Below, piece by piece: positions 4,775 through 12,022 of a stretch of 64,000 bases of DNA (its first letter is position 1; the number at the start of each line of letters is the position of its first letter). The stretch covers positions 1-64,000 of the forward strand of contig MGQB01000017.1 of the NCBI GenBank assembly GCA_001797675.1, read 5' to 3'. The position numbers and the translations under genes were made by a program. This DNA comes from Deltaproteobacteria bacterium RBG_13_43_22 (lineage in GTDB: Bacteria > Desulfobacterota > RBG-13-43-22). The notes beneath the pieces are model-generated. The model did not search any database and was not told the origin of the DNA. It saw only the letters and a list, made by a program, of their open reading frames with translations.

Positions 4775-5452
4775 ATGAGAACCTGTCGATTATGTCACAA
4801 TCCGGCGCATCTTGTTTTTGAAGAGGTCCGCCCCTTTTTTGCCTGCAATGTTTGTGGGTTGATTTTTTCCGATTGCTTTATTTCGGCTGAAGCAATTGAG
4901 AAACATTATAAGGATCAGCATAACAATGTATTTAATTGGAAGAAGGAAGCGGGATTTTTTATTGAGTGGCTAAAAAATTTGGAATGGTCCTTACCGTTAT
5001 CATCGTTATCTTTTTTAGACTACGGCTCCGGCGGCGGGTTTTTAACTGAAGAATTAAGAAGAATGGGGTATGCGGTGGATTGTTATGAGCCCATGCTTCA
5101 TGGAGAATTCAACCCAAATAAATATTCGAAAGCCTATGACGTTATTATTATGAATGAAGTGGTCGAACACTTGGAAGATATCAACAAAACCCTCGATATT
5201 ATTTGTAGCCTTCTGGCGGACAACGGTGTTGTTATTATCAAAACCCTTTTAACCGATCGGATCATCAATGATCCGGAAAATTTCAAGGAGTCGTTTACCC
5301 GCTGGTGGTATAAAGATGATCCTACCCATATCTCTTTTTTTAATTTTATGACCATCGAGTACCTCTGCCACGATCGGGGCAGGAATCTTATGGTCCGGGC
5401 GATTTCTTCCACAGATAATTGTGTTGTGCTACAAAAAATGGAAGGATCTTGA
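4775..5452 (+). CDS. Class I SAM-dependent methyltransferase with N-terminal zinc-ribbon-like motif
   Basis: This 225-residue protein starts with a CRLC...CNVC four-cysteine motif (residues 4-30). A Rossmann-type methyltransferase follows, with motif I LDYGSGGGFLTEEL near residue 80, then IIMNEVVEHLED near 125. The pattern of an N-terminal CxxC pair before a Methyltransf_23 domain is frequent in proteins that methylate sugars or lipids in surface-glycan clusters, but the substrate cannot be read here. The gene is AT-richer than its neighbours and sits beside the selC islet. Its stop codon is 18 bases before the tRNA-Sec fragment at 5470. Confidence 0.8.
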   Translation: MRTCRLCHNPAHLVFEEVRPFFACNVCGLIFSDCFISAEAIEKHYKDQHNNVFNWKKEAGFFIEWLKNLEWSLPLSSLSFLDYGSGGGFLTEELRRMGYAVDCYEPMLHGEFNPNKYSKAYDVIIMNEVVEHLEDINKTLDIICSLLADNGVVIIKTLLTDRIINDPENFKESFTRWWYKDDPTHISFFNFMTIEYLCHDRGRNLMVRAISSTDNCVVLQKMEGS

Positions 5453-5469
5453 TCGAGATCAAAATAAGG

Positions 5470-5528
5470 ATGGCAGAAGTGCATGGGAATCAAACCCAAC
5501 TGACGCCCTCTTCAGACGGCACACCGGA
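5470..5528 (-). repeat. Degenerate copy of the 3' part of the tRNA-Sec gene (att-like site)
   Basis: These 59 bases match 7229-7287 in the same orientation, with four mismatches. The matched part of the tRNA runs from the 3' end including CCA, through the acceptor and T arms and the long variable arm, to the 3' side of the anticodon stem, and stops at the anticodon loop. This is how integrative elements leave an att duplication at a tRNA gene. The mismatches show that the copy is old or non-functional. The hipBA genes lie exactly between the copy and the intact tRNA. Confidence 0.85.
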
Positions 5529-5652
5529 GCGGATTGCAATATTTCCAGATAAATTGATATGTTATTCCTATCGATCAAATTTTTTTGAAAAATCCCCCCT
5601 CTTTGGGTTCCTTTACCTTATAAAATTACAGATGGGACAGAAAAATATCACG

Positions 5653-5722
5653 ATAAATGCATTTTTTATAATGCAAAATATTATTGACAAGCATAAATGC
5701 ATTATATATAATTCATTTATGC
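5653..5722 (+). promoter_or_regulatory. hipBA promoter with two operator-like repeats
   Basis: A full-consensus sigma70-type promoter is visible: TTGACA at 5684-5689, 17 bases, TATAAT at 5707-5712. It lies in a 32-base near-perfect palindrome (5691-5722, 15 of 16 pairs) with arms GCATAAATG and CATTTATGC that also covers the hipB start codon. The 11-mer ATAAATGCATT of the palindrome recurs exactly 40 bases upstream (5653-5663), within a second TGCATT-N6-AATGCA inverted repeat. The layout fits HipB autorepression at two sites on the same helix face. The expected transcript start falls at or within one or two bases of the ATG, so the mRNA is probably leaderless. Confidence 0.8.
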
Positions 5723-5964
5723 TTTTCTATATCGGTAAAGAAATTCGACAAGCACGAAAAAATCGCAAGGTCTCCCAGACTAAGCTGGCGAAAGCCCTGG
5801 GCATGAGCCGTACCACCATCGGGCAGATCGAAAACGGTTCTGTACAGGAGATTGGTGTGCGAAAACTGATCCGGGTGCTCGAATTCCTGGGGCTGGAACT
5901 GCGTGTCCGGCCTGCAGGCAGGCCTCCGACGATGGAGGAACTTCGTGAAGAGGGGGCCCTTTAA
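5719..5964 (+). CDS. hipB: HipB-like antitoxin, XRE-family helix-turn-helix
   Basis: An 81-residue protein with an XRE/Cro-type helix-turn-helix (about residues 5-60: IGKEIRQARKNRKVSQTKLA, then SRTTIGQIENG) and a short polar tail. In the HipBA family this protein binds the toxin kinase and represses the operon. The frame is open upstream to 5419, but ATG 5719 fits the domain start and sits at the end of the promoter palindrome. There is no ribosome-binding site before it, consistent with leaderless translation. Its stop codon overlaps the hipA start as TAATG. Confidence 0.88.
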   Translation: MLFYIGKEIRQARKNRKVSQTKLAKALGMSRTTIGQIENGSVQEIGVRKLIRVLEFLGLELRVRPAGRPPTMEELREEGAL

Positions 5965-7160
5965 TGTCGGATATAACATCACTTGCTGTATGGGGCGCAG
6001 ACAAACGGTCCGGCCTTCTTGCCCGTGAACTGCGCCAGGAATATGTGTTCGCCTATTCTCCGGATGCCGACACCGTTGCCCAGGTATCCCTGACCATGCC
6101 GGTGCGCCTGCAGAGTTGGGTGAGCCGCGAACTGCACCCCATATTCCAGATGAACCTGCCGGAGGGTGCACTTCTGGAGGCCATCCGCCGGGCCGTTGCC
6201 AAGGTGATCGGGGAAGATGACCTGTCTATTCTCCGGGTTACCGGGGGAAATCAGGTAGGGAAAAACCGGTTCGCACTCCCCGGCGAGGGGTCGCCGCATA
6301 TTGAGGAATCGCCGGAATCTCTGGATGAATTGCTCACCTATTCAAACACCAGGGAGCTTTTTCATGAACTGGTTGACAGATATGCCCTCCATTCCGGGAT
6401 TTCGGGAGTCCAGCCGAAAGTCATGCTGGATGCCACGGAACGTGGCACGTTAGCGTCGTCAGGCTACATCGTCAAGTCCTGGGGCACAGATTATCCATAC
6501 CTGGCCGCCAACGAGTATTTCTGTATGACAGCGGCAAAACGGGCCGGTCTGCCGACGCCGGAATTCTTCCTCTCGGATAATGGTGGCCTCTTCATTATGC
6601 GTCGCTTCGACGTCACTCCCGACGGGGCCGCCATCGGCTTCGAGGATATGTGCAGCCTCCAGGCCCTAGGGACCGCGCAGAAATACTCAAGCAGCTATGA
6701 ACGTGTAGCGAAGAGCATCAGGGACTTTGTATCCGGTGACCGCCTGATGGCGGCCAGGGAGCAGTTATTTGCAACGCTGGTGTTGTCGGTCATGCTGCGA
6801 AACGGCGACGCCCACTTGAAAAACTTCGGTGTGCTCTACGATTCACCCCTGGGCGCTGTTACCCTCGCACCGGTGTATGACGTGGTGACCACGACGGCCT
6901 ATATCAGAAAAGACGTGCCGGCGCTCTCCCTTTCGGGAACAAAGAAGTGGTGGCCGCGCAAAGTACTGGAGCGCTTTGCCGTGGCTTATCTTTTCCTAAC
7001 GGGGGGAACGGTTTCCGCCACTTTCAGCCGCATGGCCGAAGCCGTAACGGAAACGCGGGGAATGATCCCCGGCTACATAGCCGAACATCCGGAATTCCGC
7101 GAAATCGGTGAACGAATGATGGCGGAGTGGGACGAAGGAGTCAATGGACTGGGTGGCTGA
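5964..7160 (+). CDS. hipA: HipA-like serine/threonine kinase toxin
   Basis: This 398-residue HipA-family kinase has an N-terminal couple_hipA region (about 10-105) and a C-terminal HipA kinase core. Visible motifs are GISGVQPKVML (P-loop-like, about 150), the catalytic NGDAHLKNF near 290 (HipA pattern N-G-D-x-H-x-K-N) and the metal-binding APVYD near 312. In E. coli, HipA phosphorylates glutamyl-tRNA synthetase and causes growth arrest and persistence; the target here is unknown. It is translationally coupled to hipB by a one-base overlap. No inactivating change is seen. Base composition is GC-richer than the flanking methyltransferase gene, and the pair sits at a tRNA integration site, so transfer is likely. 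Confidence 0.92.
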   Translation: MSDITSLAVWGADKRSGLLARELRQEYVFAYSPDADTVAQVSLTMPVRLQSWVSRELHPIFQMNLPEGALLEAIRRAVAKVIGEDDLSILRVTGGNQVGKNRFALPGEGSPHIEESPESLDELLTYSNTRELFHELVDRYALHSGISGVQPKVMLDATERGTLASSGYIVKSWGTDYPYLAANEYFCMTAAKRAGLPTPEFFLSDNGGLFIMRRFDVTPDGAAIGFEDMCSLQALGTAQKYSSSYERVAKSIRDFVSGDRLMAAREQLFATLVLSVMLRNGDAHLKNFGVLYDSPLGAVTLAPVYDVVTTTAYIRKDVPALSLSGTKKWWPRKVLERFAVAYLFLTGGTVSATFSRMAEAVTETRGMIPGYIAEHPEFREIGERMMAEWDEGVNGLGG

Positions 7161-8417: not shown

Positions 8418-10145
8418 ATGAAAGTCCGTCTGGCAAAAAAGGCAGGGTTTTGTATGGGAGTCCGCCGGGCCATGGAACTGGCCCTGGAGGCCAATTACCA
8501 CTATCCCGATCCTATTTACACCTTTGGACCCTTGATCCATAACCCCCAGGTTTTATCGATGCTCGAACAAAAAGGGATCCATATCCTGGACCCCAATCAG
8601 GATCAACAAACCGGTACGGTCGTTATCAGGGCTCACGGCATCCCCCCTCAGGACCACGAACGATTGAGAAAGAACGGCTGTACTATAGTGGACGCCACTT
8701 GTCCAAGGGTGATTAAGGTCCAGGCCATTATCAAAAAATATGCTCAGGAAGGATACACCTCGATCATTGTCGGAGATCGGGATCATCCGGAAGTCATCGG
8801 ACTGCTGGGCTATTCTCAAAACCAGGGGATTGTCCTGACCCATCCCGATCAGGTCGAAGATCTGCCGGAGTTGAACAAGGTGATTGTGGTGGCCCAAACG
8901 ACTCAGGATGAATCCCTCTTTCAGAGGGCCGTTAAAAAATTAAGAAAGCGGTTTCCCGATAGTCTTATTTTCAATACGATTTGTAATGCCACCCATGAAC
9001 GTCAGGAAGAGGTGCACAACCTGGCCCGGCAGGTGGATGGGCTGGTTATCGTAGGGGGTTATAACAGCGGGAATACCCGACGACTGGTGGGAATCACCGA
9101 ATCCGTAGGTACCCCCTGTTTCCATGTCGAAACAGAAGATCAATTAGATAAGCAGGAAATCCGACGATTCAAGACCATCGGGGTTACCGCTGGGGCTTCA
9201 ACCCCCAATTGGATGATACGAAAGGTGGTCCAGGAACTGGAAGGGATCAAGGGTCAGGGAGAATATTGGTGGAGTGCAATTCTTTTTCGTTGTGTCCGTT
9301 TCCTTTTAAAAAGTAATCTAATGATAGCCTTGGGGGCCGGGTGTTTGACCCTGGCGGCCGCCCGGTTACGACAAACCCCTTTAAACGGGATTTATTTTGC
9401 CGTAACCTTCTTCCATATTTATGCCATGCACATTTTGAATCATCTCCTGGATCGGGGGGCTGCAGAATACAACGACCCGGATCGCTCTCAATTTTATCGG
9501 CGATATCGACCGGCCTTCTTCATTTCAGGGACAGGAGCCGCCTTATTTTCCCTGGCCCTGGCCTTGACCCTGGGCTGGGCACCGTTCCTTTTCTTGATCG
9601 CCATGAGTACCCTGGGCATCCTATACAGCTTTCAGATCGTACCGGCTGTTTGGCAGCGGTTTACGAAAATGAAAAAGATTAAAGACATCCCGGCCTCCAA
9701 GACCCTTTCGGTGGCCCTGGGTTGGGGCGGTGTAACCACTTTGATTCCGGCCATGGCGGAACATCAGCCTTTCAGTTTTTCTCTGATTATTATCTTTTTG
9801 ATCATTTGTGCTTTTGTCTATATTCGCTCCGGCCTTTTTGATGTCTTGGATATACAGGGAGACCTGATCGTAGGCAAGGAAACCTTGCCGATTATTATTG
9901 GAGAAGAAAAAACCATCCGTCTCCTGAAAGGGTTAAGCCTGGCGACGATGATCAGTTTATCGGCAGGATCCCTTTGGGGTCTTCTGCCTCTTTGGAGTCT
10001 GTGGCTGCTGATCAGCCTTCTGTTTCAGTTTGGTTTTTTGATCATTTACGAAAAAAATCGGGCTTTGCCAGGAAGCGTTTTTTTCGAGGCAATGGTGGAA
10101 TCCGGTTTTATCCTGGCCGGATTGACAGCTCTGTTAATACCTTAG
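8418..10145 (+). CDS. ispH: Fusion of IspH (HMBPP reductase) with a UbiA-type prenyltransferase
   Basis: This 575-residue protein is about twice the length of IspH. Residues 1-280 are a complete IspH: KAGFCMGVRRA, DATCPRV and FNTICNATHERQ supply the three iron-sulfur cysteines, and HPEV, AQTTQ and GGYNSGNTRRL are also present. IspH makes IPP and DMAPP in the last step of the MEP pathway. Residues 290-575 form about eight membrane helices with the two aspartate-rich motifs of UbiA prenyltransferases, NHLLDRGAAEYND and FDVLDIQGD. No stop or frameshift separates the halves. The fusion would tether a [4Fe-4S] cytosolic reductase to the membrane and link isoprenoid supply to prenyl transfer; the acceptor is unknown. 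Confidence 0.9.
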   Translation: MKVRLAKKAGFCMGVRRAMELALEANYHYPDPIYTFGPLIHNPQVLSMLEQKGIHILDPNQDQQTGTVVIRAHGIPPQDHERLRKNGCTIVDATCPRVIKVQAIIKKYAQEGYTSIIVGDRDHPEVIGLLGYSQNQGIVLTHPDQVEDLPELNKVIVVAQTTQDESLFQRAVKKLRKRFPDSLIFNTICNATHERQEEVHNLARQVDGLVIVGGYNSGNTRRLVGITESVGTPCFHVETEDQLDKQEIRRFKTIGVTAGASTPNWMIRKVVQELEGIKGQGEYWWSAILFRCVRFLLKSNLMIALGAGCLTLAAARLRQTPLNGIYFAVTFFHIYAMHILNHLLDRGAAEYNDPDRSQFYRRYRPAFFISGTGAALFSLALALTLGWAPFLFLIAMSTLGILYSFQIVPAVWQRFTKMKKIKDIPASKTLSVALGWGGVTTLIPAMAEHQPFSFSLIIIFLIICAFVYIRSGLFDVLDIQGDLIVGKETLPIIIGEEKTIRLLKGLSLATMISLSAGSLWGLLPLWSLWLLISLLFQFGFLIIYEKNRALPGSVFFEAMVESGFILAGLTALLIP

Positions 10146-11320: not shown

Positions 11321-12022
11321 ATGAACAACCAATCTTCAATCAACGATTTCTATGTTGGTTTGCCCAAATTGTTGCTTTTCCTTTTGTCGACTTTGATATT
11401 TCTGGGATTTTTGTCCTGTCGTCAGGTGATCCCTCCTCCCCAAACAGCGATTGCCCTTCCTTCTCCTCCGGGACCGCTTTCAACACCTGCCCGGCCTTCG
11501 CCCGAGGAAACGGCTTTGACTGCCCGGGCCGTGGTGGACATTCCTCCCCCAGTCCCGATACTGCCTCCTCTGGAAGATAAGATTAAACTCCTTCCCCCGG
11601 AGTCATGGAAAATCGTGATCAAAAAAAACCAAAGAAAGCTCCTCCTCTTTCAGCAAGGGGAATTGATGAAAATATATCCGGTTGATCTGGGAGAAAAACC
11701 TATAGGACCGAAACTCCACCACGGGGACATGAAGACTCCCGAAGGGGAATACCGGGTTATTGCCAAAAAAGAACAGGAGCAAACCAAATATTATTTGGCC
11801 TTCCTTTTGGACTACCCCAATGAGTCGGATCGAATTCGTTATGAACTGGCCCTGAAAAACAACCGGCTTCCCAAAGATATAGGGATTGGCGGTCTAATTG
11901 AGATTCATGGGGGCGGGAAAGGGGTCGATTGGACTCAAGGTTGTATTGCCTTGCTTAATCCCCACATGGTGGAACTGTTTAATCAAATCCCGGTTGGGAC
12001 CACGGTCTGGATCGAACCTTGA
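11321..12022 (+). CDS. L,D-transpeptidase (YkuD domain), probable lipoprotein
   Basis: This 233-residue protein has a membrane-targeting segment (15-32) ending in a lipobox-like FLSC, a proline-rich linker (35-85) and a YkuD catalytic domain. The active-site pattern H-G-x-G-(x7)-T-Q-G-C is visible as IHGGGKGVDWTQGCIAL near residues 190-207. These enzymes form 3-3 crosslinks in peptidoglycan or attach proteins to it, in the periplasm. The domain resembles the ErfK/YafK type, with the substrate-side HHGDMKTPEGEY. It is a single gene with its own promoter. Confidence 0.9.
   Translation: MNNQSSINDFYVGLPKLLLFLLSTLIFLGFLSCRQVIPPPQTAIALPSPPGPLSTPARPSPEETALTARAVVDIPPPVPILPPLEDKIKLLPPESWKIVIKKNQRKLLLFQQGELMKIYPVDLGEKPIGPKLHHGDMKTPEGEYRVIAKKEQEQTKYYLAFLLDYPNESDRIRYELALKNNRLPKDIGIGGLIEIHGGGKGVDWTQGCIALLNPHMVELFNQIPVGTTVWIEP

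Follow-up and report, generated by a model that had tools for sequence, protein, structure and literature searches.

On the forward strand of the window (the whole 64,000-nucleotide stretch of DNA that was analysed, from Deltaproteobacteria bacterium RBG_13_43_22), a gene of 575 residues at positions 8418-10145 joins an IspH (LYTB) domain and a UbiA domain in a single open frame, which starts at an ATG and holds no stop between the two halves. A sequence-only reading of this DNA had claimed a natural fusion of IspH with UbiA in one frame, and this claim stands: the boundaries are exact, the frame is uninterrupted and the fusion recurs in other assemblies. Neither a missed stop nor an assembly join, which that reading had named as grounds for doubt, accounts for the frame, and two sister genomes carry this fusion end to end at 85% and 83% identity.

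An IspH half and a UbiA-fold membrane half

The IspH half comprises residues 1-275 (positions 8418-9242, forward strand), as supported by the IspH family model TIGR00216 and by alignment of a predicted model to E. coli IspH. It scores 295.2 bits against TIGR00216, for which the curated cut-off is 187.85, and residues 3-275 match Pfam LYTB with 317.3 bits. The three expected cluster ligands, Cys12 (8451-8453), Cys95 (8700-8702) and Cys189 (8982-8984), are invariant in all 60 aligned fusions, in agreement with the earlier claim of an intact IspH with three cluster cysteines. Judged by its sequence, the IspH half is intact and predicted to be a working IspH. When we looked for separate ispH and ubiA genes, as had been proposed, no second IspH was matched in the source genome (3.23 Mb, 85.14% complete, 39 contigs), while ispG was found elsewhere in it. 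Thus, if the assembly is representative, the fusion must supply IPP and DMAPP. Apart from the fusion, a single gene of the UbiA family was matched in this genome, and the named models that fit it best are decaprenyl-phosphate phosphoribosyltransferases.

The membrane half spans residues 293-575 (9294-10142, forward strand). Residues 304-545 match PF01040 (UbiA) with 48.4 bits against a cut-off of 34.2, and 52 of the 60 aligned fusions match this family at E 0.001. Among NCBIfam models the half comes closest to prenyltransferases, though with scores well short of their cut-offs, and single-sequence and profile searches against solved structures gave weak matches, the best meaningful one at E 0.00056 (6m31). 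The full-length predicted structure (pLDDT 87.6, pTM 0.80) superimposes on E. coli IspH with a Z of 32.8 (rmsd 1.9 A over 281 residues) and on the Aeropyrum pernix UbiA 4od4 with a Z of 19.6 (rmsd 3.1 A over 256 residues), which points to a UbiA fold; the Z to UBIAD1 is lower, at 15.1.

The sequence-only reading had assigned both UbiA aspartate-rich motifs to this half, which is correct for the second but not for the first. The second motif, D475-D482 (DVLDIQGD; 9840-9863, forward strand), contains a complete DxxxD, D478-IQG-D482; D482 is found in all 65 full-length fusions and D478 in 44 of the 55 that form the main group. The first motif, N341-R356 (NHLLDRGAAEYNDPDR; 9438-9485, forward strand), is degenerate by alignment column counts. 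It reads N341-HLL-D345-RGA-A349 (NHLLDRGAA) and lacks the last Asp of the published first motif, NDxxDxxxD (PMC7839719, PMC9314443).

Distribution, losses and selection

Of 59 relatives, 55 match the fusion protein, 22 of them end to end (the source's own included). One of these 22, at locus L025 (G025:C37), has an intact IspH and two in-frame stops (TAA and TGA) early in the UbiA half, beyond which the remaining frame is still conserved. A profile of the UbiA half matched 114 of 296 sampled genomes of the phylum at E 1e-10, with 115 matches, 30 of which (loci L084-L113) were counted at the level of the match. Frames that could encode the fusion (565 residues or more) account for 110 of the 115, so the UbiA half was hardly ever found by itself. 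Among the five shorter matches, those in G173 and G213 begin no more than 8 bases from the edge of a contig, that in G033 is a separate 293-residue gene beside its fusion, and those in G085 and G253 are of 305 (a gene) and 264 residues. At locus L151 (5073-5951), in a genome that carries the fusion as well, a UbiA-type gene of 293 residues stands on its own and its first motif is complete (NRLTDVEED); of two standalone relatives of the fused UbiA half it scores the higher.

The fusion extends to Planctomycetota, to which a Candidatus Scalindua MAG belongs and in which 45 of 246 genomes gave 49 matches, 40 of these with frames of 569 residues or longer. We opened 33 loci, 29 from the Planctomycetota search and four others: in 32 a single frame encodes both IspH and the UbiA half, and the remaining one reaches the end of its contig. 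By record title the fusion also occurs in a Nitrospinota MAG and in Brocadiaceae. If the MAG labels are reliable, a restriction of the fusion to sulfate reducers no longer holds. Two candidate oddities were discarded, an apparent standalone UbiA half in G455, where the match runs to the contig edge, and recoding of an in-frame TGA, flagged in three genomes: in L164 and L165 this TGA is an ordinary terminal stop, and in L166 the pattern used yielded no frame. One genome (G549) has three full-length fusion-type matches, on contigs C53, C113 and C123, reflecting either contamination or real paralogues. At L174 (G035:C5:107110-109300) a 542-residue frame encodes IspH followed by about 260 residues of other hydrophobic sequence, in a genome with no UbiA-half match among the matches listed; it is possibly a further diverged or a different membrane fusion.

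In a quick tree of 88 IspH domains, in which 28 of 85 forks are weak, the fused rows fall together (7 changes, compared with 27.5 on average after shuffling) and enclose unfused ones; these sequences make a single origin of the fusion plausible. The membrane half has been lost cleanly at least once: at L069, from a Desulfobulbaceae MAG, an unfused IspH of about 290 residues lies in the same gene order as in fused relatives, and the UbiA half has no match in that genome, so IspH works there without it. Where the UbiA half is present it is kept by purifying selection, as its low dN/dS of 0.08-0.21 indicates (Nei-Gojobori; 16 of 17 close pairs with finite dS, with the values rough for the two to three pairs in which dS exceeds 1). 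The IspH half of the same 17 pairs gave a close range, 0.07-0.16.

Gene neighbourhood gave no guide to function. Across 26 loci compared, with selected neighbours family-scanned, no pathway is shared among the neighbours of the fusion: Dus and a glycosyltransferase lie at the source locus, and elsewhere arginyltransferase with FtsY, RadC with TadA, or Fur-like regulators. The window also holds a protein with DUF1254 and DUF1214 domains (904-2292), a helix-turn-helix gene (HTH_3) directly followed by a HipA-domain gene (Couple_hipA, HipA_C) in the layout of a HipBA-type toxin-antitoxin system (5419-7160), and a protein with a YkuD L,D-transpeptidase domain (11321-12022).

Aspartate-rich motifs across the fusion family

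We counted motif residues by alignment column in 55 of the 65 full-length fusions (53 distinct halves), keeping ten strongly diverged Thermodesulfobacteriaceae-type rows apart; the 65 do not include fused loci truncated by a contig end or a stop (L025, L065, L068, L076, L077, L081 and L083). In the first motif, position 1 is Asn in 54 of the 55 and position 13 is Asp or Glu in 51, while the middle Asp at position 5 is kept in 40 and gone from 15. The last Asp, at position 9, is kept in seven and lost from 48, with thirteen different residues in this column; both Asp 5 and Asp 9 are retained in just five fusions, which form one clade of the IspH tree. In the second motif, Asp occupies position 1 in 43, position 4 in 44 and position 8 in all 55. 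On the tree of the IspH half, the middle Asp of the first motif and the first Asp of DxxxD have each changed at least six times. All four core residues, that is Asn 1, Asp 5 and both Asps of DxxxD, are retained in 29 of the 55, the source protein included. A further 28 fusions showed the core set in three, Asp 5 in four and its absence in 24 (Glu in five, gaps in four), along with Asp 8 of the second motif in all 28.

As a control we took 50 distinct, separate UbiA-family genes of the same phylum, of which 48 carry an acidic residue (Asp or Glu) at position 5. The control pattern was run on 51 loci and located the first motif in 48; it misplaced the hit in L120, which was therefore read separately, and did not find the motif in L153 and L157, and L002 and L163 are the same gene, which leaves 50. 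An N...D...D pattern (41 of 44 loci) was rejected as a control, since what it hit in MenA-type genes was the second motif. MenA-type control genes have no Asp exactly at position 9, and the first motif reported for UBIAD1, NTYYDFSKG, is also without the last Asp (PMC9314443), although UBIAD1 is described as an active prenyltransferase that makes menaquinone-4 (PMC9314443, PMC8641950). Loss of the last Asp alone thus does not prove inactivity, and position 9 is a poorer criterion than position 5. We do not call the UbiA half of the source protein dead; at the level of the sequence alignment, it is the fusion family that does not maintain the site.

The ten Thermodesulfobacteriaceae-type halves go furthest: little is left of both motifs but Gln/His-x-Asp, and in all ten rows the sole Asp retained is the final one of the second motif. 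Their likeness to the main group in a profile comparison is weak and suggestive (probability 62.9, E 7.1e-05). The predicted model of such a half (pLDDT 90.2) has a UbiA fold and best fits UBIAD1 in 8djk (Z 16.4, rmsd 4.0 over 244 aligned residues), followed by archaeal UbiA (Z 15.9), with soluble prenyl synthases at a Z of 12.3 and below. Foldseek with this model returned no match at E 0.001 or lower, the best being 6m31 at 0.0023. The modelling suggests that the UbiA fold has persisted in Thermodesulfobacteriaceae although hardly anything of the motifs is left.

A proposed membrane platform for IspH and its alternatives

The question is what the membrane half does for the enzyme to which it is fused. 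We put at about even odds (roughly 0.5) the reading in which a working IspH is permanently fused to a UbiA-fold domain that holds it at the membrane and retains a pocket, and that is not an ordinary transferase. The common job of the membrane half would be to hold IspH at the membrane, and its conserved pocket (Y403, W436, R470, D482, E488 and T489) would bind an isoprenoid or a diphosphate. Ordinary Mg-dependent prenyl transfer would not be its common role, and residual or altered transferase chemistry may persist in some lineages, the source lineage included. Because metal ligands come and go while fold and pocket are under selection, and because one branch is nearly free of ligands, the half more likely serves IspH in place. 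Such a platform, with its pocket for a ligand, explains most of what was observed. Against it count the conserved pocket and the low dN/dS, which exceed what a bare anchor would require, and the 29 core-keeping fusions, source protein included, whose conserved pocket is explained just as well by a changed transferase. The departures of UBIAD1 and of the MenA-type genes at position 9, and the acid at position 13, which might stand in for the missing Asp, weigh against it too.

A true bifunctional enzyme, whose IspH half makes IPP and DMAPP and whose UbiA half transfers a prenyl group to a quinone or lipid through a remodelled first motif (N341, D345 and D/E353), is in our judgement rather unlikely. 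The second motif and the pocket residues are conserved as such an enzyme would need, MenA and UBIAD1 likewise depart from the classic first motif, the best named models of the half are prenyltransferases (far below their cut-offs, as noted), and the acid that nearly all fusions have at position 13 might substitute for the missing Asp. However, the middle Asp is lost from 15 and the first Asp of DxxxD from 11 of the 55, each with repeated changes on the tree, and the middle Asp is absent from 24 of the 28 further fusions, whereas separate UbiA genes nearly always keep an acid there. Moreover, the products of IspH are C5 compounds whereas most UbiA enzymes use longer donors, and the neighbouring genes reveal no pathway. 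The bifunctional enzyme is also the reading favoured by Rao et al. (PMC4746011), whose 'Rosetta stone' idea of 2015 was that the fusion links precursor supply to prenyl transfer. This idea may be wrong for much of the fusion family, since the domain persists while its supposed transferase metal site does not. The channelling of product to a quinone or lipid acceptor, as the sequence-only reading had it, is weakened by the same degeneration in part of the homologues; it is possible above all for the source protein, which keeps the four core residues. That reading had itself named dead C-terminal motifs across homologues as evidence against it, and such decay is seen in part of the family, with 29 of 55 keeping Asn 1, Asp 5 and both Asps of DxxxD. 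Its alternative, tethering of IspH to the membrane, fits better.

The boldest of the readings is a feedback sensor, in which the UbiA half would bind a prenyl diphosphate and adjust IspH, by analogy to UBIAD1, which is reported to relay geranylgeranyl signals to HMG-CoA reductase (PMC8641950). A UbiA fold with a retained pocket and a weakened catalytic motif is consistent with this, and UBIAD1 supplies the precedent; yet the model of the source protein is less similar to UBIAD1 than to archaeal UbiA (Z 15.1 against 19.6), and ligand control is putative, so that we regard a sensor as quite improbable. Its more specific form, a pseudo-transferase that has lost the first metal site, keeps the pocket under selection, senses prenyl diphosphates at the membrane and tunes IspH, would have a slim chance of being right; if a sensor it is, the fusion would be a one-chain bacterial counterpart of UBIAD1 with HMG-CoA reductase. 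An assembly or annotation artefact, or a functionless chance fusion, is scarcely credible: the source is one MAG-like draft assembly of 39 contigs, but the fusion is shared by many independent assemblies from at least two phyla, which already refutes it, and dN/dS is low in both halves.

The degenerate site thus makes for a clear question, whether the membrane half transfers a prenyl group or anchors and regulates IspH, and nature has provided experiments in the clean loss of the membrane half and in the almost motif-free Thermodesulfobacteriaceae branch.

As a kind, the IspH-UbiA fusion was already published in 2015, when Rao et al. (PMC4746011) described 47 'Rosetta stone' fusions, 'all in sulfate-reducing bacteria' and of unknown function, assigned the domain to PT_UbiA_5, reported two DXXXD repeats, tried three proteins from which full-length product was not obtained, and proposed membrane localisation with high local IPP/DMAPP. 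A search of the open-licence literature by title or abstract start found no later study. New here are the spread within the phylum and in Planctomycetota, the degeneration of the first motif, the purifying selection, the clean loss and the near-motifless branch. The source protein belongs with the fusions of Rao et al., sharing an N-terminal IspH, a C-terminal UbiA-like membrane domain in the same chain and a separate UbiA/MenA elsewhere. It differs in that only the second of the two DxxxD repeats (which they report but do not use as a definition) is present, the first being incomplete in most relatives as well, and the family now includes Planctomycetota MAGs (Scalindua, Brocadiaceae) and a Nitrospinota MAG. 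The IspH-RPS1 fusions (PMC4746011; NF000907) likewise have IspH as N-terminal half, and NF000907 matches residues 1-279, but their partner is the soluble ribosomal protein S1 and the score of 327.4 falls short of the cut-off of 624. Archaeal UbiA homologues (4od4/4od5, 4tq3-4tq6) and DGGGP synthase (6m31) share the fold, and the second motif aligns by profile to 6m31, whereas the first motif is degenerate in the fusion and identity is 12-16%. The UBIAD1-HMG-CoA reductase complex (8djk) also pairs a UbiA-fold membrane protein with an enzyme of isoprenoid precursor synthesis, but as separate chains, in eukaryotes and in the mevalonate pathway, whereas in the bacterial fusion the pairing is within one chain and any sensing is putative.
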